Assembly: GCF_024437735.1 (NCBI RefSeq)
Contig: NZ_JANFQO010000001.1
Location: 186,001-250,000, forward strand
From: Tahibacter harae
Lineage (GTDB): Bacteria; Pseudomonadota; Gammaproteobacteria; Xanthomonadales; Rhodanobacteraceae
Direction of reading: 5' to 3'
Length of the DNA: 64,000 bases
Both the position numbers and the translations under genes were made by a program. The notes beneath the pieces are model-generated. The model saw only the letters and a list, made by a program, of their open reading frames with translations. It had not been told where the DNA came from and ran no database searches. Of the stretch, positions 1 to 11,214 are shown one piece after another (the first letter of the stretch is position 1; the number at the start of each line of letters is the position of its first letter).

Positions 1-644
1 ACACCGAGAACTCCACCCGCATTGGCTACAACCCCAAGTCGGCCAGCGCCAGCACCCTGACCGGCTACGGCGCGGCCAGCGCCTACGATGTGGTGCTCGA
101 CGCCACGCCCGGCTCCACGCCGTCCGGCGGCCGTTTCGGCGTGCCCGGCGATTACCTCTACCGCGGCTGGACCGCGAACATGTTCCAGGCCGGCGCCTGG
201 GGCCTGTTCCGCGTTGCGCCGTGGACGCCGCGCGCCGGCGGTGCCGCACTGCCCGATACCGTCGGCATCAGCGCGGTGGAGCACGGCAAGGACGGCGTCA
301 TCGTGCGCGGCTTCGTCACGCCCTGCCCGTACGCGGTCAGCGACAGCGAAGGCCGCAGGGTCTGCGCGGCCGGCGGCCATGTGCGCGAAGTGGCGATCGA
401 GGGCGTGGGCAAGGCCACGGTGAACAACGGCCGGTGGATCTTGCAGACGCGCCGCGACCTGCCGGCGGAATTCGCTGTGCGTTCGCCCGCCGGCGGCTAC
501 GCCCGCTGGGGCGACACGGTGGCGGCACAGAAGGCCTTCGCCAAGTCGCTCAAGGCGCCGGCCGCGACCGCCGCCGCGACACCGGCACAACCGCCGCCGC
601 AGCGCCAGGCGCCCCAGCGCACCAAACGGCTGCCGCGGCAATGA
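1..644 (+). CDS. C-terminal part of a multicopper-oxidase-like protein (5' end outside window)
   Basis: The reading frame is open from the left edge (first full codon at 3) to TGA at 642-644, so only the last 213 residues are visible. Near the start is a stretch containing PGDYLYRGW and, shortly after, AGAWGLFRV. This resembles the end of the last cupredoxin domain of large multicopper oxidases, where G-D-Y-L-Y-R and G-x-W-G-x-x-R-V are typical. No copper-ligand His/Cys cluster is visible, so the ligands must lie upstream if it is an active oxidase. After the cupredoxin-like part comes a roughly 100-residue beta-rich extension containing two cysteines and an Ala/Pro/Gln-rich basic tail. The stop codon overlaps the ATG of the next gene (ATGA), which indicates translational coupling. 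The nearby SCO gene supports a copper protein. The family call rests on one motif and is moderate. Confidence 0.5.
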   Translation, partial: TENSTRIGYNPKSASASTLTGYGAASAYDVVLDATPGSTPSGGRFGVPGDYLYRGWTANMFQAGAWGLFRVAPWTPRAGGAALPDTVGISAVEHGKDGVIVRGFVTPCPYAVSDSEGRRVCAAGGHVREVAIEGVGKATVNNGRWILQTRRDLPAEFAVRSPAGGYARWGDTVAAQKAFAKSLKAPAATAAATPAQPPPQRQAPQRTKRLPRQ

Positions 645-2476
645 GGCAATCCGTCCTGGAACGGCGGCGCTGCCGGCGCCGTCCCGGCATGGCACTGCTG
701 TTCGCGCTGCTGCCGCTGCCGGCCCTGGCCGGCGGCGGCGTGCGCCAGCAGCACGACGACCAGGGCATAGCGATCGCTTTCGAGACCCGCGGCGATGACA
801 CCGACACCCCGGTCGAATTCCGCTTCGCCCTGAGCGACAAGGCCAGCGGCCGTCCCATCAGCGGCATACGCCCGGCCGCCTGGCTGGGCCTGCGCGACGA
901 CAGGGCCGCGCCGGGCCAGGCCTGCAAGCAGCGCATCGCCAATTACCTGGCCGGCGATCTGTTCCACCGCGCCGACGTCGATCTGAACAGCTATTTCGTG
1001 CTGGCCATGAACGACGAAGCCTCGATCAGCGTGGTCGATCCGCTGTTCGGCTTCGGCGGCTCCAAGCTGCTCGCCCTGCTCACGCTGGAGCAGCCCGGAC
1101 TGGACTGGCAGCTCACACCCGAACGCGAACGCCTGTTCGTGTCCATGCCGGCCGCGGGCAAGGTCGCCGTTGCCGATACGCGCCTGTGGAACGTGGAACG
1201 CAGCATCGCCACCGGGCCGAATCCGCGCCAGCTGCGCCAGAACGACGACTACATCTGGGTTGCCGATGACGCCGGGCTCACGCGCATCGACCGGCGCGAT
1301 CTGTCCGTGCAGCGCGTGGCCCTGGGCACGGTGCGCGATCTGGAACTGGACGCGCGCGGCGAAAAGCTCGCCGCCCTGGCCGGCAAGAAACTGATCGTGG
1401 TGGATGCGCACAGCGCCGCGCGCCTGGCCGAGATCGAACTGCCCGGCACGCCGCAGCAGCTGGCCTACTCCGCCGCCGCGCAGGCGGTGTACGCGCTGGA
1501 CGCGGAAGCCGGCCAGGTCCACGCCGTCGATCCCGCATCCGGCCGCCTGCGCGCCAGCATCGCCGTGGAAAGCGGCGCCGCGCAGATCCGCTTCGCCCCG
1601 GACGGCCGCCACGCCCTGCTGCCCAATCCGCAGCGCAACCGCCTGCAGGTGCTGGACGCGGCCAGCAATGCCATTGTGCAGAATGCGGATATTTCCGGCG
1701 CACCCGACCAAGTCGCGTTCACCCCGCTGCAAGCCTATGTGCGCCGGCGCGGCAGCGAGATCGTGCAGCTGATCGCGCTGGACCAGCTCGGCCGCACCGG
1801 CCAGCCGCTGAACGTGGCCGAATTCCCCGCCGGGCAGAACCCGCTGGGCCCTGCGCCCGCCGACGGCGGCGACAGCATCGTCGCCGCGCCCGAAGGCCCG
1901 GCCGTACTGGTGGCCAATGCGGCCGACAAGATGATCTACCTCTACCGCGAGGGCATGGCCGCGCCGGCCGGCGGCCTGCGCACCTACGGCCGCGTGCCGC
2001 GCGCGCTGCTGGTGGTCGACCACGGCCTGCGCGAAGGCCGCCGCGGCGAATACACCGCGCGCATGCCGGTACCGAAGGCCGGCAGCTACGACGTGGCGCT
2101 GTTCGCCGATTCGCCGCGCATCGCGAGCTGTTTCCGCCTGGACATCACCGACAAGCGTCCGCCGCCGCCCGCCCCCGCGCGCGTGGTCGCCCTGGATCCG
2201 CCGGCCCAACTCAAGGCCGGCATACCGGCGGAGCTGCGTTTCGCCCTGCTCGACGGCGCCGACGGCCGCCGCCGCAGCGGCGCCGACGTGCACGGCCTGG
2301 CCTTTCTCGCGCCGGGCATCTGGCAGAACCGCAGCACCCTCGCCGCCGCCGCCGACGGCAGCTACGCCCTGCGCTTCACCCCGCCGCAGGCGGGCCTGTA
2401 CTACGTCTGGATCGAGGCGGAATCGCTGGGTCTGGCGCGCCGGCACAACCAGTTCCTGGTCTACGAAGCCAAGTAG
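641..2476 (+). CDS. Secreted YncE-like beta-propeller protein
   Basis: A 611-residue protein. The ATG at 641 overlaps the preceding stop codon; an internal Met at residue 17 (base 689) is an alternative start. An Arg-rich n-region is followed by MALLFALLPLPALA, a typical signal peptide, so the mature protein is periplasmic or surface-bound. Residues from about 130 to 430 contain repeated short strands of the type V-V-D-x-x-S/T and G-x-x-P-x-Q-L, as in the seven-bladed YncE/cytochrome-cd1-like propellers. There is no CxxCH, so no haem is attached. The C-terminal 170 residues look like two Ig/copper-resistance-type beta domains ending in LYYVWIEAESLG. In known clusters such propeller proteins accompany multicopper oxidases. 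A structural or electron-transfer partner role for the upstream oxidase is inference. Confidence 0.6.
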   Translation: MRQSVLERRRCRRRPGMALLFALLPLPALAGGGVRQQHDDQGIAIAFETRGDDTDTPVEFRFALSDKASGRPISGIRPAAWLGLRDDRAAPGQACKQRIANYLAGDLFHRADVDLNSYFVLAMNDEASISVVDPLFGFGGSKLLALLTLEQPGLDWQLTPERERLFVSMPAAGKVAVADTRLWNVERSIATGPNPRQLRQNDDYIWVADDAGLTRIDRRDLSVQRVALGTVRDLELDARGEKLAALAGKKLIVVDAHSAARLAEIELPGTPQQLAYSAAAQAVYALDAEAGQVHAVDPASGRLRASIAVESGAAQIRFAPDGRHALLPNPQRNRLQVLDAASNAIVQNADISGAPDQVAFTPLQAYVRRRGSEIVQLIALDQLGRTGQPLNVAEFPAGQNPLGPAPADGGDSIVAAPEGPAVLVANAADKMIYLYREGMAAPAGGLRTYGRVPRALLVVDHGLREGRRGEYTARMPVPKAGSYDVALFADSPRIASCFRLDITDKRPPPPAPARVVALDPPAQLKAGIPAELRFALLDGADGRRRSGADVHGLAFLAPGIWQNRSTLAAAADGSYALRFTPPQAGLYYVWIEAESLGLARRHNQFLVYEAK

Positions 2477-2524
2477 TCCGTCCACCGCAGTTCTCACTTG
2501 CAGTTCCCACAAGGAGCCCCAGCC

Positions 2525-4432
2525 ATGTCGAACGACCCAGGTAACTCCGGCGGCAGTTCATCCAATCCACTGATCGGCCACACCGCAGTACCCGTCGCGC
2601 CGAAGTACGTGCTCGACAACGGCAGCTACCAGCTGCAGGCCTTCACCACGCCGGCCTGCAACAACGACTTTCCCGACGATCCGGCCGCCTACGCCCGCCT
2701 CGCCGCGCTGTGGAGCCAGAACGTCGACGGCTTCACCAACCAGGCCATCACCGGCAATCCGTGGAATTCGCTGTTCGCCGCGCAGCAGACCGGCTACTAC
2801 AACCCGCTCGATACCGGCATTCCGGACAAATCCACCATCGTCGATGTGGCCTGGATCGCCTTTCCCAACCGCCTGATCCAGTACCTGGGCCAGAACCAGG
2901 TGCCGCCCAATCCCTACAACCTGCCGCAGAGCGTGCTGAACCAGCTCGCCGACACCGGCGAATTGTCCAAATATCCCATTCCGTCCATCCGCTGCCCGCA
3001 GGCCGACTGGAGCGGCGAGCTGCAGCCCTACGGCCCCTACGGCCCGCGCGGCTGGCTGGATGAATACTGCGAGTTCAGCGTGGTGCGCAACGCGGCCAAC
3101 AAGATCACCCGCATCGACTTCACCTGCGAGAACCCGGAGTACTACCAGACCTTGTGGCGCATCAGCCCCGAGCGCGTCTGCCAGGTGTACGAACAGGCGC
3201 TCAACGCCGGCGCGCCGCAGGACCAGTGGGTCAGCGTCAGCGTGGCCGACCTGCAGCTGGTGGATCCGGTCAGCGGCCAGCCGGTGATCGATCCGGAAAC
3301 CGGGCGCCCGGCCTACAACCCGCTCAACCGCTTCAACAACGGCCCCGCGGCCACGCGCGGCGGCAGCGGCGCCAGCGGCGGCGCCATGCACCTGACCGCC
3401 ACGCCCAATACCTTGCAGACCGAACTGGGCCTGGGCGCCGGCGCCACCGTGCAGCGCAGCTCCGGCAATACCGATCCGCAGGCGCTGATCTGCTGCGGCC
3501 AGTACGGCCAGAACTATCGCAACAGCGATCCGCATATCGGCCAGACCATCAACCTCGCCGTGGGCGCGGGGCTCAACATCTCGCTGGCCGATCCGCCGGG
3601 CCTGTACATCCAGATGCCCAGCTTCGCCCAGTACCAGCTGCCCAATGACCCCAAGCTGCCCAAGGGCGCCACCGCGGCCGACTGCTGGCACATCATCCGC
3701 GGCTTCGAGCAGATCCACGACGAGATCACCGGCCGGCCCTTCCCGGGCTCGCTAATCCTGCACGCCGCCTTCCAGATCCCGCAGTCCTGGATAGACGCCG
3801 GGGTCAGCTTCACCGTCGGCGACATCACCATCGCCGGCGAACCCATCGAGTACGGCTCGCAGGTGCAGGCCACGCTGGAAATCGCCCTGTTCGGCCGGCC
3901 CATCGCGCCGGTGGCAAAGACGCCGACGCTGGCCTGCGTAGGCTCACCTTCCGTCGTCACCCAGGCCCAGCCGCTGCAAATACTTTTCCAGAATGTGTGG
4001 GATGCCTACTACGGCACCACGGTCAACACGCCCTCGGGCGTGAGCATGGTGCTGGCGAGCAATTCCAGCATTATCCCGCCCACGGTATCGCCGGGCGAGA
4101 AGAATGTCGCCCTGGCCCTGACCTATGCCGCACCGACCGCGAACAGCCCGCTGCCGCCCACGCAGTGGCCCAGCGTCTACTTCACCCTGCCCGACGGCAG
4201 CGCCGATACCAGCATCACGGCGAGCGTCGCCGACTTCGTGCCCGAAGTGACCTACGCGGTGCCGGGCAATACCTATCCCAGCCCGTCGCAGCTGCTCAAG
4301 CTCAAGGTCAGCATCGGCATCAATGCGCCCGCCGGCGTGCGCGGCATCGTCATCGTCCCGGCCGGCCAGGTGTTCAGCCCGGCCATTACGCCGGCGCCGG
4401 CTTTCCTGGTCGTCGCCGCCACCACTGCCTGA
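2525..4432 (+). CDS. Uncharacterised 635-aa protein in the copper/haem cluster
   Basis: The start at 2525 has a good Shine-Dalgarno sequence (AAGGAG) about nine bases upstream; a longer reading frame from 2498 lacks one. The 635-residue product has no signal peptide or membrane segment: it opens with a Gly/Ser/Asn-rich stretch. Residues 150-230 are aromatic and cysteine-containing (ELQPYGPYGPRGWLDEYCEF, then IDFTCENPEYY). A central region has an adjacent Cys-Cys pair (ALICCGQYGQNY) and an HIGQ sequence. The last 200 residues are Pro/Thr-rich beta-type sequence. I cannot assign a family or reaction. It sits 48 bases after the propeller gene and 11 bases before the haem lipoprotein gene, so co-transcription is very likely. 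The missing export signal is odd beside exported neighbours; either it is cytoplasmic or it leaves the cell by a signal-peptide-independent route. Confidence 0.75.
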   Translation: MSNDPGNSGGSSSNPLIGHTAVPVAPKYVLDNGSYQLQAFTTPACNNDFPDDPAAYARLAALWSQNVDGFTNQAITGNPWNSLFAAQQTGYYNPLDTGIPDKSTIVDVAWIAFPNRLIQYLGQNQVPPNPYNLPQSVLNQLADTGELSKYPIPSIRCPQADWSGELQPYGPYGPRGWLDEYCEFSVVRNAANKITRIDFTCENPEYYQTLWRISPERVCQVYEQALNAGAPQDQWVSVSVADLQLVDPVSGQPVIDPETGRPAYNPLNRFNNGPAATRGGSGASGGAMHLTATPNTLQTELGLGAGATVQRSSGNTDPQALICCGQYGQNYRNSDPHIGQTINLAVGAGLNISLADPPGLYIQMPSFAQYQLPNDPKLPKGATAADCWHIIRGFEQIHDEITGRPFPGSLILHAAFQIPQSWIDAGVSFTVGDITIAGEPIEYGSQVQATLEIALFGRPIAPVAKTPTLACVGSPSVVTQAQPLQILFQNVWDAYYGTTVNTPSGVSMVLASNSSIIPPTVSPGEKNVALALTYAAPTANSPLPPTQWPSVYFTLPDGSADTSITASVADFVPEVTYAVPGNTYPSPSQLLKLKVSIGINAPAGVRGIVIVPAGQVFSPAITPAPAFLVVAATTA

Positions 4433-4443
4433 GGAGCGAAGTC

Positions 4444-5988
4444 ATGAAAAATTCCACACTGATGCTTCGTTCCGGCCTGCTCGCCCTGGCCGTGCTGGGC
4501 GCCATCTCCTGCAGCCGCGACCAGACGCGCAGCAGCGACACGACGCCCGCGACACCGGCAACGCCCGCAGCACCGGCCGCCCCCGCGACACCGGCCGCGG
4601 GCGGCGCCGCCACCATGCCGCAGGGCTCGACCAGCAACTGCCTCGCGCCACCGACGCTGAACTACACCGTGCCCAAGGATTTCGCCCTGACCCGCCAGGC
4701 CGACGCCAACTGCTTCGCCTGGCAGCAATTCCTCGCCCTGAACTGGGTCGCCGCCAGCGGCCAGCGCGGCCAGCCCGACACCGGCGTGCCGGCCAGCCAG
4801 TTCGGCGACCCCAACGACGAACGCGCGACGGTATGGGAGACCTACAAGGAATCCGACGAAGTCTTCCTGGCCGATGCCAAGGATCCCGGCCCGTGGAACA
4901 GCTGGGCCGGCGGCGCCAGTGTGAAACTGCTGGGCGGCATGAAATCCGAAACCGCGCCGGAACCCGAGCTGGATCTCAGCGCCATAGGCCAGGCCTCCCA
5001 GGGCAGCCCCTGGCTCACCGCGCAGAGCGGCATACTCACGCTGTACGAGCGCCGCATGAACGAGGACGAGTACAACTACATCGTCAAGAACAAGCTGTAC
5101 AACGCCAATGTGCAGCAGACCTTCGTCAAGTCGCCCGGCATCAGCCTGCCCGACGGCACGGCCAGCAGTGCGGCCTACGGCAGCATCGGCGCCATCGAGA
5201 CCAAGGCCGCCTGGCTGGAACTGCCCAACGCCGCCGACTGGCCGCGCTACAAGATCTCCAAGGCCGTGGTCACCTATCCGGGACAGAAGCCGAAACAGGT
5301 CATCGTCGGCCTGGTCGGCCTGCACATCATCCACAAGACCGCGCTGGGCCAGCAGTTCATCTGGGCCACCTTCGAGCACCGCGACAACGTGCCCAGCAAG
5401 AGCCAGGTCGCCGCGGGCAGGCTGGACCGTCCGTATACCTACTACAACCCCAACTGCAATCCGGCGACCGACTACTACAAGTGCGTGGTGAACGCCAATC
5501 CGGCCAAGGTCAACGGCGGCAAGAACCCGTACAACGCGCCCATCCAGGCCGTGCGCGAGACCGACATTCCGACCCGGCCCAACAACGATGTGGCCGGCCT
5601 CAACCAGTACGTCTGGTCCCAGGTCATCGCCGCGCAGAATCCCGATTCGGTGTATCTGAACTACGAGCTGGTCAACACCTTGTGGTCCAACCAGAACACC
5701 ACCATCGCGCCCGGCTCGCGCGTGCCGCTGCCCGCGCCGCAGCTCTCGCCCGGTCCCAGCCAGGAACCGGTCGCGAACACAACGATGGAAACCTATGTGC
5801 AGAGCCTGACCTGCCTGGCCTGCCATGCCTCCGCGGCGATCGCGACGGTGAAGCCGAGCAAGTTCACCAAGATCTACGACCCCGCCACCGCCGGCAGCAG
5901 CGCCACCGCACAGAACCCATATGCCGCCGACTACTCCTTCCTGCTCAACAACGCGCAGCAGCCGGCGGCGCATCAGGGGAATCGCTGA
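4444..5988 (+). CDS. Haem-binding (CxxCH) lipoprotein, cytochrome c-like
   Basis: A 514-residue protein starting at 4444 with GAGGAG upstream. The N-terminus is a lipoprotein signal peptide: a hydrophobic run followed by A-I-S-C with Cys23 as the predicted lipidated residue, then a Thr/Pro/Ala-rich linker. One covalent haem motif, CLACH, lies at 457-461 near the C-terminus. The rest is a large aromatic-rich domain (for example CFAWQQFLALNW and VWETYKESDEVF) that does not resemble an ordinary small cytochrome c. A single haem near the end of a 500-residue domain suggests electron transfer from or to a bound substrate, but the substrate is unknown. It is followed by a REP-type palindrome rather than directly by the next gene. 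Confidence 0.65.
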   Translation: MKNSTLMLRSGLLALAVLGAISCSRDQTRSSDTTPATPATPAAPAAPATPAAGGAATMPQGSTSNCLAPPTLNYTVPKDFALTRQADANCFAWQQFLALNWVAASGQRGQPDTGVPASQFGDPNDERATVWETYKESDEVFLADAKDPGPWNSWAGGASVKLLGGMKSETAPEPELDLSAIGQASQGSPWLTAQSGILTLYERRMNEDEYNYIVKNKLYNANVQQTFVKSPGISLPDGTASSAAYGSIGAIETKAAWLELPNAADWPRYKISKAVVTYPGQKPKQVIVGLVGLHIIHKTALGQQFIWATFEHRDNVPSKSQVAAGRLDRPYTYYNPNCNPATDYYKCVVNANPAKVNGGKNPYNAPIQAVRETDIPTRPNNDVAGLNQYVWSQVIAAQNPDSVYLNYELVNTLWSNQNTTIAPGSRVPLPAPQLSPGPSQEPVANTTMETYVQSLTCLACHASAAIATVKPSKFTKIYDPATAGSSATAQNPYAADYSFLLNNAQQPAAHQGNR

Positions 5989-6287
5989 AGGAGCTTTTTG
6001 GCTTTGAGCCGAAGCAGAAAAAGTAAAGAACGCTACCTCTCCCCCGGCTGCGCCGGGGGAGAGGGTTGGGGTGAGGGGGAAACCTCTGAACTCGCGGCCT
6101 GATTTGGTTTTCGCGGAAATCCACGAACCGCAAAAAACCAAACTGATCGCAAGATCCAGGCGCCGCCCCCTCACCCAACCCTCTCCCCCCAAGCGAGCTT
6201 GGGGAGTGGGCTCCGAGCACATTCCGCTTCACAACGCAGCAGATCAGCGACATCGCCGCCTCACACCAACCGTTTAGGGGGAATGCC
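5989..6287. other. Intergenic region holding a REP pair
   Basis: About 300 bases between the haem lipoprotein gene and the 275-aa gene. It contains the inverted REP pair described separately, no convincing reading frame, and a strong ribosome-binding site (AGGGGGAA) just before the ATG at 6288. The REP pair may end or stabilise the upstream transcript. Confidence 0.6.
6036..6210. repeat. Inverted pair of REP-like elements (BIME-type palindrome)
   Basis: A CCTCTCCCCC...GGGGGAGAGG hairpin followed by GTTGGGGTGAGGGG at 6036-6079 is mirrored at 6166-6210 by CCCCTCACCCAACCCTCTCC and a second small hairpin. Between them, TTTGGTTTTCGCGG (6103-6116) pairs imperfectly with CCGCAAAAAACCAAA (6128-6142). 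The whole segment is thus a long imperfect palindrome. GC-rich REP elements with a GTTGGGGTGAGG core are widespread in gammaproteobacterial intergenic regions and are mobilised by RAYT-type transposases. No such transposase gene is in this window. Confidence 0.75.
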
Positions 6288-7115
6288 ATGTCCACACCCG
6301 TCCCGTCCTGGATAACCGCGTCCTGGGAGCGTCTCTGGGTCATCAACAACAACCAGGGCCCGCCGGAAAACACTGTCAACGTGCGCAATATCCAGACGCC
6401 GACGCTGTTCGGCGACTGCCGCATTCCCAAGGACCGGCCGCGCTATCCGCAGGCACATTCGCTGGCCGACCTGTCCAATGCGGAGCTGGCCACGCTGTAT
6501 CCGCAGGAAGGCTTCAGCGGCTACACCACCACCGACGGCTACATCATCACCTGGCATCACGAGATCGATTACCAGCCGCCGGACGGCTCCATCGACATAG
6601 GCCGCTTTGAGCTGCTGGGCGGGCGCAACGTGCTGGAGCACGGCGTGCAGTCGGTCTATCTGGAGCACTGGTGGCGGCTGGAGGAACCCGGCGGCTACTT
6701 TCTCGGCATCAAGGTGATGCGCAACCTCGGCCACGGCCAGCAGCGCGTGCACGAGATACTGTCCGTATCGGGCGATCACTTCATCTACGCGCGCAACCGC
6801 GCCTTCGACCTGCCCATGGCCAACAACCTGGCCGACCTGATCAAGAAAGAAAAATACAGCCGCAAGCAGATCCTCGCCGTGCTCGACTGCGAGGTCTCGC
6901 ACGGCTTCGTGCTCGGCGGCCGCCAGCCCTGGGAAGTGCAGTTCTCCACTTTGCCATTCAAGGAGGACAAGCCGCTCGAATTCGCCCAGCGCATCCGCGT
7001 GGATCCGAAGACCGGCCAGCTCAGCCAGCCCGGGCTCGCACCGGACCTGATCTGGTCCGTGCCGATCAACACGCTGGGTGTGGAAGACCTGCTCGTCCTG
7101 TTTCCGCCGGCCTGA
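6288..7115 (+). CDS. Uncharacterised 275-aa protein with QTPTLFGDCRIPKDRP motif
   Basis: A 275-residue protein with no signal peptide and no membrane segment; the ATG at 6288 has a strong Shine-Dalgarno sequence. Near the N-terminus it carries QTPTLFGDCRIPKDRP, followed by EGFSGYTTTDG, a His-His pair in IITWHHEIDYQPP and YLEHWWRLEE. The alternation of short strands and turns looks like a beta-barrel, lipocalin-like fold; that is inference. I recall uncharacterised bacterial proteins with a similar (W)xQxPxLxxDxRxPxxRP opening, but no function. It sits between two haem-protein genes and 28 bases before the second one, so it probably belongs to the same pathway. Confidence 0.7.
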   Translation: MSTPVPSWITASWERLWVINNNQGPPENTVNVRNIQTPTLFGDCRIPKDRPRYPQAHSLADLSNAELATLYPQEGFSGYTTTDGYIITWHHEIDYQPPDGSIDIGRFELLGGRNVLEHGVQSVYLEHWWRLEEPGGYFLGIKVMRNLGHGQQRVHEILSVSGDHFIYARNRAFDLPMANNLADLIKKEKYSRKQILAVLDCEVSHGFVLGGRQPWEVQFSTLPFKEDKPLEFAQRIRVDPKTGQLSQPGLAPDLIWSVPINTLGVEDLLVLFPPA

Positions 7116-7143
7116 GCGCCGGCTTTGCTCTGGGGGAATCACC

Positions 7144-8856
7144 ATGAAGCTTCTGATCGCCACGCTGGCACTGGCCGCGCTCGCCGGCCAGGCCCAGGCC
7201 GCCGCCGACAAGAATCCCGCCGAACGCTGCCAGATCCAGAACAACACCAGCGGCAACGTGCTGCCGCCCGACGCCCACGGCGACGCGCTGTTCAAGCTGC
7301 TCAGCGCCCAGCCCTGGTGTCCGGGCAATGCACTGGAATTCCGCGCCCTGGTGCTGGCCAACAAGATGGTCTCGCGGCCGTCCATGGTCGCCAACCGCGG
7401 CTTCCACAATCCGCTGCCACAGGGCAGTTTCAGCTTTTTTGAATCCATCGACGGCAGCTACGCCGGGCAGACCCTGGTCCCCGGCGACTGGTTCTTCGGC
7501 CACTTCACCGCGGCCTCCATCGACAATACCGCGCTGACCAGCATCCTGGCGCCGCAGCAGGCGGCGACGCCGGACAACCTGCTGCTGGAAACCCTGGTCT
7601 GGGATCCGCGCAAGCAGGCCTACAATTTTTACGAGATCCGCGGCACCGGCCAGGGTGGCCAGTGGTTCTACCGCGGCGATTCCTACGATATCCAGGCCGA
7701 TATCCAGAACCTCTGGCGCGCCTACGATCCCTCGCAGCCGGTATTCATGGGGCCGCCCGACGCAGGCAAGGCCACGCTGCCGCGCCTGCGCTGCTCCGGC
7801 TGCCATATGAACGGCGGGCCGATCATGAAGGAGCTGAGCTTCCCGCATGATTCCTGGTGGCGTCCGGAACGCCCGCTGCCGCTGGGCGCGCTGCGCATCG
7901 CGCCGGAATACAAGAACATCATCGACAGCCTGGTCAGCTCGGAAACCTTCTCCGGCTGGATCAAGGCCGGCAACGAAAAGCTCGCCTCGGCCGAGGCCTA
8001 CATGAAGAAGCGCGCAACGCTGCCGCTGCAGGAACAGCTGCGGCCGGTGTTCTGCGAGCAGGAAGTGAACCTGGATTCCGACCTGCTGCCGCTGCAGGGC
8101 GACGCCGCCCAGATCAAGGCGCCGGTCGGCGCCTTCATCGACCAGCGCCTGGCCGGCGACATCCAGGCCATCAGCATCGACAAGACGCTCTACGTCAACG
8201 CGCTCAACCTGTTCCAGGCGCAGTTCTTCGACTACCAGAGCGGCAACTTCCAGAACTCGGTGCAGCCGATCAACCAGATCGACGCCGACCACGCCTTCGA
8301 GACGCCGGTGAAGTCGCATACCGACATGCTGCTGGCACAGAAGATGATCAAATCCGGCCTGATCGACGAGAAATTCCTCTACGACGTACTCAGCATCGAT
8401 CCTACCCGGCCCATGTTCTCCGCCGAACGCTGCGGCCTGCTGCAACTGGTGCCCGGCAGCGCGCCCACGCCGGACTGGCGCAAGCAGTTCGCGCAGAACC
8501 TGGCCAATTCGCCGCGCCCGGCCGCGCAGCAATTGCTGGCCAATTTCAACGACGCCAGCCGCACGCCGGCCTGGCATCGCGCCCAGGCCAAGCAGATCCT
8601 GACCAAGGTGCAGACCCTGGCCGGCCAGCAGCTGCCGGTCAACGGCTACGTGCGCCTGCTGGCCGGACGCCGCATCGCGGTCTACCAGGCGCAGATCTCG
8701 CAGCATCCGCAGGGCCAGATCTTCGAGCCTGGTTTCCGCCTGATCTTCCCCACCATGCAGTTGTTCCAGAAGAACCAGCAGCAGATCGCCTACGGCGGCG
8801 TGCCGGAGCAGTATTGGCTGAATCCGGCCACGGGCGCGGTGGAGCTGGCGCCCTGA
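7144..8856 (+). CDS. Exported cytochrome c-like protein with a single CxxCH
   Basis: A 570-residue protein starting at 7144 with GGGGGAA upstream. A clear signal peptide (MKLLIATLALAALAGQAQA) directs it to the periplasm. It has one haem motif, CSGCH at 217-221, followed closely by MNGGPIMKEL; the Met after the haem motif could be an axial ligand. The haem lies in the middle of a long chain instead of at one end, and the flanking regions (SFSFFESIDGSYAG, FFDYQSGNFQNS) match no standard cytochrome I know. Two further cysteines occur in the N-terminal part (CQIQNN and WCPGNA) and may form a disulfide. With the haem lipoprotein and the multicopper-oxidase-like protein it could form an extracytoplasmic electron chain. 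Function unassigned. Confidence 0.65.
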   Translation: MKLLIATLALAALAGQAQAAADKNPAERCQIQNNTSGNVLPPDAHGDALFKLLSAQPWCPGNALEFRALVLANKMVSRPSMVANRGFHNPLPQGSFSFFESIDGSYAGQTLVPGDWFFGHFTAASIDNTALTSILAPQQAATPDNLLLETLVWDPRKQAYNFYEIRGTGQGGQWFYRGDSYDIQADIQNLWRAYDPSQPVFMGPPDAGKATLPRLRCSGCHMNGGPIMKELSFPHDSWWRPERPLPLGALRIAPEYKNIIDSLVSSETFSGWIKAGNEKLASAEAYMKKRATLPLQEQLRPVFCEQEVNLDSDLLPLQGDAAQIKAPVGAFIDQRLAGDIQAISIDKTLYVNALNLFQAQFFDYQSGNFQNSVQPINQIDADHAFETPVKSHTDMLLAQKMIKSGLIDEKFLYDVLSIDPTRPMFSAERCGLLQLVPGSAPTPDWRKQFAQNLANSPRPAAQQLLANFNDASRTPAWHRAQAKQILTKVQTLAGQQLPVNGYVRLLAGRRIAVYQAQISQHPQGQIFEPGFRLIFPTMQLFQKNQQQIAYGGVPEQYWLNPATGAVELAP

Positions 8857-8866
8857 GGGGCGCCGG

Positions 8867-8891
8867 GATTGGGGATTGGGGATGCCGGGAT
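8867..8891. repeat. Short GGGATTG tandem repeat
   Basis: Directly after the cytochrome gene the sequence GGGATTGGGGATTGGGGATG repeats a GGGATTG unit and then decays. Short purine-rich tandem repeats of this kind are common between genes in xanthomonads. No function is evident; the gap also holds the region upstream of the SCO start. Confidence 0.5.
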
Positions 8892-8941
8892 TCGCGAAAA
8901 CGGACCCGGCAGCTCGCTCCGGTGCGGGAGCTGTCGAAGCG

Positions 8942-9592
8942 ATGAAGCCGGGAACTGCCTTGTATAAAAACATCAGACCCATAAGTCGGATCGCGCCGGC
9001 TCTGCTGCTGGCTGCGGCCGGCGCCGCTTGCGCCGAGCCGGAGACGTCAGCGCGGGAAAAATCCGCTCAGGCGACAACCGCGCAGGAAACGGCAACGCCG
9101 CGCAACGGCGCGGCAATCTATCTGGCCGACCTGCCGCTGGTCGATGCGGACGGCAACACCGTGGATCTCTACCGCGACCTGATCCAGGGCCACAGTGTCG
9201 TGATCCACAGCTTCTTCGCCCGCTGCGAAGGCAGCTGCCCGGTGATGATGAGCACTTTGCAAAGTCTGCAGAAAAGGCTGGGCGGACATCTGGGCCGCGA
9301 GGTGCGCATCGTCTCCATCACGGTGGATCCGAAGCATGACGGCCAGGCCGAACTGGCCGCCTACGCGCGCCGCGTACAGGCCGGGCCGGGCTGGTATTTC
9401 CTCGGCGGCTCGGAGCAGCAGGTCAGCACCGCACTGCGCCGTATCGGCCAGTACACCGACGCGCCGCAGGACCACATGAACCTCATCATCGTCGGCAACG
9501 ACCGCAGCGGCGACTGGCGCAAGCTGCACGGCCTGGCGCCGGCGCGCGACGTGGTCGCCGGCATACTGGAGGCCATCGCACTGCCCGACTGA
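8942..9592 (+). CDS. SCO1/SenC-family copper chaperone / thiol-disulfide protein
   Basis: A 216-residue protein from ATG 8942. A start at 8876 would read through the repeat region; 8942 places a hydrophobic signal (PALLLAAAGAAC) correctly, possibly with a lipidated cysteine. The SCO signature is complete: CEGSC at 95-99 (CxxxC, within FFARCEGSCPVM) and the distal copper-ligand His178 in DHMNLIIV. The thioredoxin-like core includes IVSITVDPKHD. SCO proteins deliver copper to the CuA site of cytochrome oxidase or to other periplasmic cuproenzymes. Here the nearest candidate client is the multicopper-oxidase-like protein at the start of the cluster, since no cytochrome oxidase genes are nearby. 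That client assignment is inference. Confidence 0.88.
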   Translation: MKPGTALYKNIRPISRIAPALLLAAAGAACAEPETSAREKSAQATTAQETATPRNGAAIYLADLPLVDADGNTVDLYRDLIQGHSVVIHSFFARCEGSCPVMMSTLQSLQKRLGGHLGREVRIVSITVDPKHDGQAELAAYARRVQAGPGWYFLGGSEQQVSTALRRIGQYTDAPQDHMNLIIVGNDRSGDWRKLHGLAPARDVVAGILEAIALPD

Positions 9593-9632: not shown

Positions 9633-9829
9633 ACGCATCGGCCTGCCCTTCGCGCCGGCCGCAGAGGTTTTGCGCATCGTGAAAAAAGCGGCGCAGTTGG
9701 TTTATGCTGGCCGCGGGAAAACAGGACGAAACCACAGCCGCACTGCGCGCCGCTCCGGTGCGCGCAGCCGCCCGCCTGCGGTTCCGGCTCACACCAGTGC
9801 GTAGGCAGCTCATTCACGGGGGCGCGGGC

Positions 9830-10456
9830 ATGGAGGGACTGGGAGGCGACGGCGAGAATGATCAGCCCTCCGGGACGGCGGCGCTGACCGAATCCGAAAT
9901 AGCCCCGCACCTGAAAGGCGTCACCGCCATGCTCCTGAGGCGGACCCGCGACGCCCAACTGGCCCACGATCTCACCCAGGACGTGGCCCTGGCCGTGCTG
10001 CTGGCCGTCCGCGAAGGGCGCCTGCGCGAACGCGGCGCGCTCTACGCCTACATGCTCCAGGCCGCGCGCAATCTGCTCATGGCCAGCCAGCGCAAGAAGG
10101 CGCCGGAGACCGTGGACACACTGCCGGAAGACAGCGCGCTCTGGCAGGAGCAGATCCTGCTGCCCGAACAGGTCTTCGAGCGCGGGCAACTGCATGATCT
10201 GATCGTCGAAGTGCTGGGCGGCCTTTCCGTGGAACGCGACCGCCAGCTGCTGCGCGGCTACTACGTCGACGGCCTGGACAAGCCCGAACTGATGCAGATT
10301 CTGCAGATGGACGCCACCCTGTTCGACAAGACCCTGTTCCGCGCGCGCGAGCGCATCTGTGAGGCAATGCGCAAAAAAATGCAGCGAAGCCCGGCGAACG
10401 TGGAAGAATCCGCGCCCTCGGCCGTCCCTGTCGGCGGCAAGCCGAGGTTTTCATGA
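9830..10456 (+). CDS. ECF-type RNA polymerase sigma factor
   Basis: A 208-residue protein. ATG 9830 was chosen because it follows a GGGGG stretch and begins just before the conserved part; the frame is open further upstream, but that sequence looks non-coding. Region 2 spans about residues 30-90 (LAHDLTQDVALAVLLA, then LYAYMLQAARNLLMASQRKK). Region 4 spans about 130-190 (LSVERDRQLLRGYYVDG and the helix ending in RARERICEAMRKK). The spacing and length fit ECF sigma factors, although the family match is not close. Its stop overlaps the start of the next gene by four bases (ATGA), the usual arrangement for a sigma factor and its membrane inhibitor. Targets are unknown; the delta-60 protein gene downstream and the upstream redox cluster are candidates by proximity only. 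Confidence 0.75.
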   Translation: MEGLGGDGENDQPSGTAALTESEIAPHLKGVTAMLLRRTRDAQLAHDLTQDVALAVLLAVREGRLRERGALYAYMLQAARNLLMASQRKKAPETVDTLPEDSALWQEQILLPEQVFERGQLHDLIVEVLGGLSVERDRQLLRGYYVDGLDKPELMQILQMDATLFDKTLFRARERICEAMRKKMQRSPANVEESAPSAVPVGGKPRFS

Positions 10457-11214
10457 TCACTGCGCTGGACAAATACCTGCTGCGCGCCTACCTCGACGAC
10501 AGCATGGACGAGGCCGCGGCCGAGGCCTTCGAGCTGCTGCTGATCGAACGCCCCGAGCTGGCCGAGCTGGTCATTGCCGATGTCGCGCTGGACCTGGGGC
10601 TCAAGGCCGAGGCCGACAGCGGCCTGCTGCCGCCGGCGCTGCACCGCGCCGCACCGGCGTCCGCCGCCAGTACCCGGCAAACCGGGGCGGCGCCGAAGGA
10701 GCCTGCGCCGCAGACCGCGGCCGTGGTGCCGCTGCGCACGGGCCAGCCCGCCGCGCCGGAAACGTCGCAGACAGGCCCGGCACGCGGCGAAATCCACCCA
10801 CCCTTGCGCGAGCGCCGCCGCAGCGCGGCACCCTACCTCGCCGCTGCCGCGGCACTGCTCGCCGTGGGCCTGGGCCTGGGACGCCAGCTGCAACCCGGCC
10901 AGCCCATGCTCAGCGCCACCGAAGTCGCGGTAGCCGATACCTTGCGCGGCAGCGGCTTACGCCAGGTGCGCCTGCCGGCCGCGGGCGCGCTCACCTTGTC
11001 CGTGCCGGTGATACTGACCCAGGAATGTACGCCGCCCCTGCTGCTCAGCCTGGCCCAGGGCGGCCGGCGCTGGGAAATCGAGCCGAACAAGCCGGTGGAC
11101 GACTATGTCCACGTCCGCGTCGACGCCGGCCGGCTGCAACCCGGCACGGCGGAAATCCAGCTCAGCTGCGCCGGCAAACCGCTGCAGACCACGGGCGTGG
11201 AGTTCACGCGCTGA
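10453..11214 (+). CDS. Membrane protein, probable anti-sigma factor
   Basis: A 253-residue protein whose ATG lies inside the end of the sigma gene. The first 50 residues are helical and acidic (DDSMDEAAAEAFELLLIERP), compatible with an anti-sigma domain, but the zinc-binding HxxxCxxC motif is absent. A Pro/Ala/Thr-rich linker precedes one transmembrane helix at about 126-145 (PYLAAAAALLAVGLGLG). The C-terminal 105 residues are periplasmic beta-type sequence with two cysteines (TQECTPP and QLSCAGK) that could form a disulfide and sense redox or envelope stress. The role as partner of the upstream sigma factor rests on gene overlap and topology, not on a recognised domain. Confidence 0.65.
   Translation: MITALDKYLLRAYLDDSMDEAAAEAFELLLIERPELAELVIADVALDLGLKAEADSGLLPPALHRAAPASAASTRQTGAAPKEPAPQTAAVVPLRTGQPAAPETSQTGPARGEIHPPLRERRRSAAPYLAAAAALLAVGLGLGRQLQPGQPMLSATEVAVADTLRGSGLRQVRLPAAGALTLSVPVILTQECTPPLLLSLAQGGRRWEIEPNKPVDDYVHVRVDAGRLQPGTAEIQLSCAGKPLQTTGVEFTR

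Follow-up and report, generated by a model that had tools for sequence, protein, structure and literature searches.

Organization of the locus

A stretch of 64,000 nucleotides (nt) from the Tahibacter harae genome (contig NZ_JANFQO010000001.1, positions 186,001-250,000, forward strand), referred to here as a whole as the window, opens with a cluster of seven genes. They encode the C-terminus of a multicopper oxidase (MCO), a propeller protein (g2), four proteins designated g3 to g6, and an SCO copper chaperone (g7). By sequence comparison, the operon is a known core of the MnxG type, and its new part is the four-gene insert g3-g6. An earlier note on this DNA, made from the letters alone, had listed seven same-strand genes at this position, and all seven are present.

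The oxidase fragment occupies positions 3-644 (+ strand, as for all seven genes) and comprises 213 amino acids (aa) of a reading frame that runs on leftward past the window edge. The ATG of g2 (641-2476) overlaps the oxidase stop codon. Its product has a signal peptide and is a beta-propeller protein of the YncE/YVTN type; its matches to propeller families are weak (PF21783, E = 2.9e-4; TIGR03866, E = 2.2e-8) and both fall under the curated cut-offs. The g3 gene (2525-4432) specifies a protein of 635 aa with no signal peptide seen, which belongs to an unannotated family spread over several phyla. It is followed by g4 (4444-5988), whose 514-aa product is lipoprotein-like and carries a CLACH motif at residues 457-461. 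The g5 protein (6288-7115; 275 aa) has no assigned function and no signal peptide seen, while g6 (7144-8856) encodes 570 aa with a signal peptide and a CSGCH motif at residues 217-221. The last gene, g7 (8876-9592, with an alternative start ATG at 8942), encodes an SCO1/SenC copper chaperone with a CxxxC motif (PF02630, E = 9.6e-15). Signal peptides were judged by eye throughout, and in relatives of g3 by a crude rule as well.

Tight spacing, also claimed for the cluster, holds for most gaps and fails between g4 and g5. This 299-nt gap contains a dispersed palindromic element with inverted repeats (6030-6210) that resembles repetitive extragenic palindromic (REP) elements. The gap has 87 matches in its own genome at E <= 0.001, itself included, and the palindromic element probably has no part in the function of the system.

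An oxidase of the MnxG family and its companions

Oxidases of the MnxG family oxidize Mn(II) with O2. Extension of the contig to the left, a check that the earlier note had proposed for its multicopper-oxidase-like left-edge gene, recovered the whole gene (L009:9921-15644; L and G numbers denote loci and genomes of the survey), which lies mostly outside the window. It forms a frame of 1907 aa from a TTG codon. Three close relatives carry a stop in the region of the first 27 codons, which are therefore probably non-coding. The true start is probably the ATG at L009:10002, which gives 1880 aa and is followed by a Sec-type signal.

The NCBIfam model for MnxG (NF041487) aligns to the oxidase over four stretches with a score of 1105.7 bits (E = 0), and a search of solved structures matches it to the MnxG chain PDB 9bxa with E = 1.2e-75. 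The protein is 42% identical to the oxidase of genome G033, which the MnxG model matches best. All nine aligned oxidases, that of T. harae included, keep the copper motifs HxxHxH, HCHxxxHxxxxM, HxH and HxH. These begin at residues 493, 547, 844 and 952 of the 1907-aa frame. All four thus lie to the left of the window, and the 213-aa fragment carries none of them. The copper motifs are established by sequence, and the identity of the operon by homology together with gene order. In a draw of 274 genomes from the class (the present one included), six have matches to the MnxG model at E <= 0.001, and in two of the six these are only short and weak.

No known pathway had been recognized in the cluster at first reading. 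The core nevertheless corresponds to the putative mnxG operon of Pseudomonas, which Table 4 of PMC11409713 lists for P. putida GB-1 and two cold-tolerant isolates as mnxG, a YVTN propeller, two SCO genes, an ABC-type protein with a cytochrome c domain, and SurA. A passage in PMC8218464 describes the same operon type in Pseudomonas OF001 and a mof operon in Rubrivivax A210. Compared with the listed P. putida GB-1 operon, T. harae has five of the six genes, namely the giant oxidase followed by the propeller, two SCO genes and a gene for a cytochrome c-domain protein. It differs in several respects. Four extra genes, g3-g6, stand between the propeller and SCO, the second SCO gene and the cytochrome c gene form a divergent unit, and the oxidase scores under the MnxG equivalog cut-off (see below). 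No SurA gene was found at the operon ends, where CinA lies beside the cytochrome c gene and a sigma factor follows SCO; this statement covers these flanks only.

The divergent unit lies to the left of the oxidase gene. It consists of the second SCO gene (L009:8915-9901, - strand; PF02630, E = 1e-16) and a gene for a 380-aa cytochrome c protein with a CMNCH motif (L009:7776-8918, - strand; PF00034, E = 3.9e-5), which CinA adjoins on the far side. Unlike its relative in G154, the 380-aa protein has no periplasmic-binding domain by Pfam. SCO proteins function in copper delivery, and the copper chaperone proposed in the cluster is borne out by the family match of g7 and joined by a second beside the oxidase.

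The mof operons of Leptothrix (mofABC) and Rubrivivax A210 are also similar in that a Mn-oxidase-type MCO is accompanied by a cytochrome c protein, to which A210 adds a copper chaperone (PMC8218464). The MofB-like peptidyl-prolyl isomerase that is a feature of mofABC has no family counterpart among window genes g2-g9. Among relatives of the T. harae oxidase, the propeller gene adjoins on the same strand in seven of eight and lies on the opposite strand in G028. Some more distant genomes carry the core alone. Oxidase, propeller and two SCO genes occur without g3-g6 in G581, G154 and a plasmid of Indioceanicola profundi, as do oxidase and propeller in the stretches examined of G033 and G028.

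A four-gene insert inherited with the oxidase

Searches of 97 Rhodanobacteraceae genomes found matches to the oxidase, g3 and g6 in an identical set of six (G000, which is the present genome, G558, G560, G562, G577 and G611) and in no other. Within the genus, four of seven genomes carry all three genes and three carry none of them. Relatedness among the 97 genomes makes these counts less than independent. The order oxidase-propeller-g3-g4-g5-g6-SCO is kept at 52-92% identity in two genomes of the same genus (G560 and G558) and in one of another genus (G577). In G562 a contig ends inside the propeller gene, and g3 and g6 are found together on a different contig. The claim that these genes form one cluster, and the suggestion to look for the seven together elsewhere, are answered by this pattern, which establishes co-inheritance at the level of gene content and order. 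Both findings that would have told against the earlier note are thereby contradicted, since the genes stand together in other genomes and the complete left-edge gene possesses its copper motifs.

Partial versions occur farther afield. Massilia horti carries the propeller, g3, g4, two SCO genes and cytochrome c, with no match to g5 or g6. In a metagenome-assembled genome (MAG) filed as Candidatus Kuenenia, two g3-g4 pairs come after the end of an oxidase gene, a propeller and an SCO gene.

The g3-g4 pair

Scanning 84,980 species genomes with a g3 profile yielded 153 stretches encoding relatives, and the best 80 were fetched. In 76 of these 80 loci, g4 lies downstream of g3 on the same strand at a distance of at most 471 bases. 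Two of the other four end less than 200 bases past g3 (L078 and L096), and two have g4 upstream (L058 and L072). In L072 the matched g3, with its upstream g4, is accompanied by a second g3 on the other strand that is again followed by g4. Among the hosts are Pseudomonadota, Cyanobacteriota, Myxococcota, Bacteroidota, Bdellovibrionota and one Planctomycetota MAG. Exactly one CxxCH is present in 78 of 80 g4 homologues; L127 has CxxxCH instead, and L094 is cut before the motif by a contig end.

Neither protein is covered by the libraries searched. Pfam and NCBIfam contain no family for g3 of the window, and a Pfam scan of 58 g3 proteins gave scattered weak matches, the best (E = 0.0036) to a Tat signal in a single protein. 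Similarly, Pfam has no family for g4 of the window. Among 51 g4 proteins scanned, the best Pfam match was to an MtrC/F domain (E = 0.0091, one protein) and the best NCBIfam match to cytochrome c551 (E = 0.026, two proteins). AlphaFold2 models have a mean pLDDT of 93.0 for g3 and 82.4 for g4. Foldseek comparison of these models with solved folds gave no match at E <= 0.001, and many of the weak matches of g3 are cohesin or Ig-like domains. Searches of solved structures with g3, g4, g5 and g6 likewise gave no convincing match. Two histidines, H289 and H413, are among the residues of g3 that are invariant.

One candidate assignment for g3 was tried and rejected. The spacing of 65 residues between Cys323 and Trp388, which we take to resemble that of the cysteine tryptophylquinone (CTQ) in LodA, had raised the idea of a LodA-like enzyme. 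Over 58 aligned rows this spacing varies from 59 to 76, and the Trp is replaced by Phe in four. In addition, hhalign gave a probability of 0.05% for homology to a LodA-family protein of locus L010, and the 50 matches listed, out of 721 that Foldseek gave, include no LodA. Separately, a Microvirga protein annotated as phospholipase D-like (L175:9427-11916) matches g3 in its N-terminal part.

A similar cluster outside the MnxG type is on a Paracoccus denitrificans plasmid (NC_008688, L011), where tyrosinase, g3 and g4 follow one another. The g3-g4 order is the same, with 34-35% identity, and the pair again stands beside a copper oxidase. In this case tyrosinase replaces the giant MCO, and there is no match to the propeller, SCO or g6 within the 25 kb examined.

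Distant g4-like proteins also exist without g3; the survey of their neighbourhoods leaves out L168 and part of L167. FAD-dependent three-subunit dehydrogenases consist of a GMC subunit, a small subunit and, as the third subunit, a cytochrome c. In two loci a g4-like gene takes the cytochrome position. In L160 it adjoins a gene resembling the FAD-SLDH small subunit (E = 0.0028, below cut-off) as well as a reading frame that by eye looks GMC-like at its end. In L164 it adjoins a 178-aa protein without a Pfam match and a GMC oxidoreductase confirmed by Pfam. These neighbours suggest that g4 may be an electron-transfer subunit. The g4 protein differs from the cytochromes of such dehydrogenases in its single haem motif and its lack of a Pfam cytochrome domain, and no GMC or small-subunit gene is among window genes g1-g9. 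No GMC gene was recognized beside the g4-like genes of L159, L161, L162, L163, L165 and L166.

Two further observations concern these distant proteins. T. harae itself encodes a second, distant g4-like protein with a single CxxCH away from g3 (L159:6559-8151, - strand), and G415 has one in a seemingly identical neighbourhood (L166). In L161 (6603-10108) and L165 (6999-9769), the g4-like gene stands beside another gene for a single-CxxCH protein of ~450-466 aa without a Pfam match.

A second haem-motif protein

The two CxxCH proteins of the cluster had been described as unrelated and as fitting no standard cytochrome, and the comparisons made here support both points. Membership of g4 and g6 in a single family was considered and rejected, as the hhalign alignment is limited to nine columns around CxxCH and has a probability of 4%. 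The window g6 has no Pfam, NCBIfam or PDB match, and neither g4 nor g6 has a convincing Pfam or NCBIfam family. There are no g6 matches among the 298 other genomes of a draw from the phylum.

Like g4, g6 is found with g3. Nine plasmid records hold a g6 relative, and in all nine it directly precedes, and shares its strand with, a g3 relative of divergent sequence. An Azospirillum argentinense plasmid encodes a 954-aa g6-g3 fusion that lacks CxxCH (L176:7341-10205, - strand), and in Nostoc the gene order is g6, g3, tyrosinase. The g6 CxxCH is kept in seven of seven sequences from genome contigs. Gene adjacency, together with the one fusion, establishes the g3-g4 and g6-g3 partnerships at the level of the genes. 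That both proteins partner g3-family proteins elsewhere would explain why two unrelated haem-motif proteins are present in one operon.

Neither the module formed by g3 with g4 or g6 nor a family for it was found in the open-licence PMC literature or the family libraries searched, and excerpts of PMC11930936 and PMC10732223 added nothing on the insert.

Proposed function and alternatives

The account we favour, and hold to be probable though by no means assured, is that an MnxG-type operon has acquired a dedicated single-haem redox module made up of g3, g4 and g6. The exported oxidase would receive its copper from SCO proteins and, beyond the cytoplasmic membrane, would take electrons from Mn(II) or from a phenolic reductant; Mn(II) is the presumed substrate. 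The usual companions of the oxidase would be the propeller and the divergent unit of SCO and cytochrome c. The four-gene block would have been inserted into this operon, with a widespread, unannotated redox module at its heart. In this module g3 may be a conserved binding or catalytic subunit. Haem is presumably attached to both g4 and g6, and they would then be two unrelated single-haem c proteins, each an electron-transfer partner of a g3-family protein. We infer that g3 joins them to the chemistry of the oxidase. The path and direction of the electrons can be proposed in outline, with g4 and g6 carrying them between g3, the substrate or product of the oxidase, and the respiratory chain.

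Several observations weigh against this proposal. Its main weakness is one of predicted location, as g4 and the oxidase look exported and g3 and g5 do not. The crude rule marks only eight of 86 g3 homologues as exported, one of them likely through a start-site artefact. With no signal peptide seen in g3 and g5, the extracytoplasmic place that the earlier note proposed for the system may not apply to these two, and g3 may be in a different compartment from g4 and the oxidase. Some g3 relatives do have lipoprotein, Sec or Tat-like signals, so that a role outside is possible for the family. The oxidase score of 1105.7 bits is far below the MnxG equivalog cut-off of 3100 bits, and Mn(II) oxidation is therefore not assured. 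The literature on Mn in Tahibacter yielded one table row (PMC7734401), for one isolate that the table seemingly does not count as Mn-oxidizing. Both cysteines of the g6 CxxCH are lost in five of five translated relatives from rhizobia, Microvirga and Azospirillum. In addition, the core function can do without the block, as MnxG-type loci that lack it exist.

The neighbours of g3 elsewhere raise the strongest alternative, in which the g3-g4 block forms an enzyme system apart from the oxidase. It would have a substrate of its own, for example an aromatic compound or an amine, and only promoter and neighbourhood in common with the oxidase operon. By tblastn, an oxidase or propeller gene is found in seven of the 80 g3 loci, tyrosinase in ten (at 25% identity in L106 and as a partial match in L125) and a LodA-like gene in three. 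Tyrosinase was confirmed by Pfam in three of three neighbours scanned. Within the flank examined, 63 loci have neither MCO/propeller nor tyrosinase genes, a further point against a dedicated tie to such oxidases, and 60 have none of the three types. Clustering of called genes found no family besides g3 and g4 in more than eight of the 80 loci; these calls came from a script based on open reading frames and codon usage, which may overlook neighbours that are weak or short. This pattern would fit a self-contained enzyme. In the 97 Rhodanobacteraceae genomes searched, however, none of g3, g6 and the oxidase occurs without the other two, and the block sits inside the operon, ahead of the SCO gene.

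The g3 phylogeny also speaks against this alternative. In a tree built from 58 g3 rows, a single clade with a support of 100 unites the MCO-linked g3 proteins that come from the window, Tahibacter, a Rhodanobacteraceae MAG, Pseudolysobacter and Massilia. The two g3 proteins of the Kuenenia MAG fall apart from this clade, and the tyrosinase-linked proteins also require three changes, in a tree that was made by a quick method and carries a long-branch warning. With both kinds of evidence in view, we regard a separate enzyme system as the less probable explanation.

A bolder form of the redox-module proposal, advanced tentatively and rather unlikely to hold in full, is that g3, g4 and g6 represent an unrecognized redox system of several phyla. 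A g3 protein would work with either of two unrelated single-haem c proteins and be plugged into MnxG-like, tyrosinase or LodA-like oxidases. In Tahibacter, it would link electrons of the MnxG-type oxidation to or from the respiratory chain. It is improbable that g3, g4 and g6 help the oxidase to mature or to be exported, for example as redox chaperones or in the assembly of its copper sites, and take no part in electron transfer with its substrate: the pair does stand beside three enzyme classes that need metal or cofactor assembly, g3 mostly lacks a signal peptide and one g6 branch has lost its haem motif, but g4-like genes adjoin genes for GMC flavoproteins, which have a cytochrome c as their third subunit, and MnxG-type loci do without the block.

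If the bolder form is right, MnxG-type oxidation in Tahibacter would change from a side reaction with O2 to a process coupled with the respiratory chain. An MnxG-type operon with two haem-motif proteins supplies named genes with which passage of electrons through haem can be examined. This bears on why bacteria oxidize Mn(II) and on what cytochrome maturation genes do in this process in Pseudomonas, where a role of c-type cytochrome maturation genes in Mn(II) oxidation is noted in a passage of PMC11409713. Independently of Mn(II), g3 and g4 are a widespread pair that has no family, structure or function in the libraries searched, and the g3 model is a confident one.

g5, flanking genes and a plasmid region

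The remaining member of the insert, g5, gives only a sub-threshold match to HRI1 (E = 0.048), and relatives occur in six of the 298 other genomes of the phylum draw. In loci L169-L172, g5 relatives lie near genes that by eye resemble those for substrate-binding proteins or creatininase, and g5 may therefore not be tied to the redox cluster.

Right after the SCO gene, positions 9704-11214 encode a sigma factor of the extracytoplasmic function (ECF) type and an overlapping antisigma-like protein. This pair was considered for membership in the cluster and set aside, as it has no match in the loci of 12 relatives, whose downstream side is covered in part.

A Bradyrhizobium barranii plasmid brings together relatives of g4, g6 and g3 in one region (L010:10057-29355), near genes for a radical SAM protein, a flavoprotein annotated as a halogenase and an oxidase of the LodA/GoxA family. 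Several genes of this region also match Microvirga lotononidis (L178).

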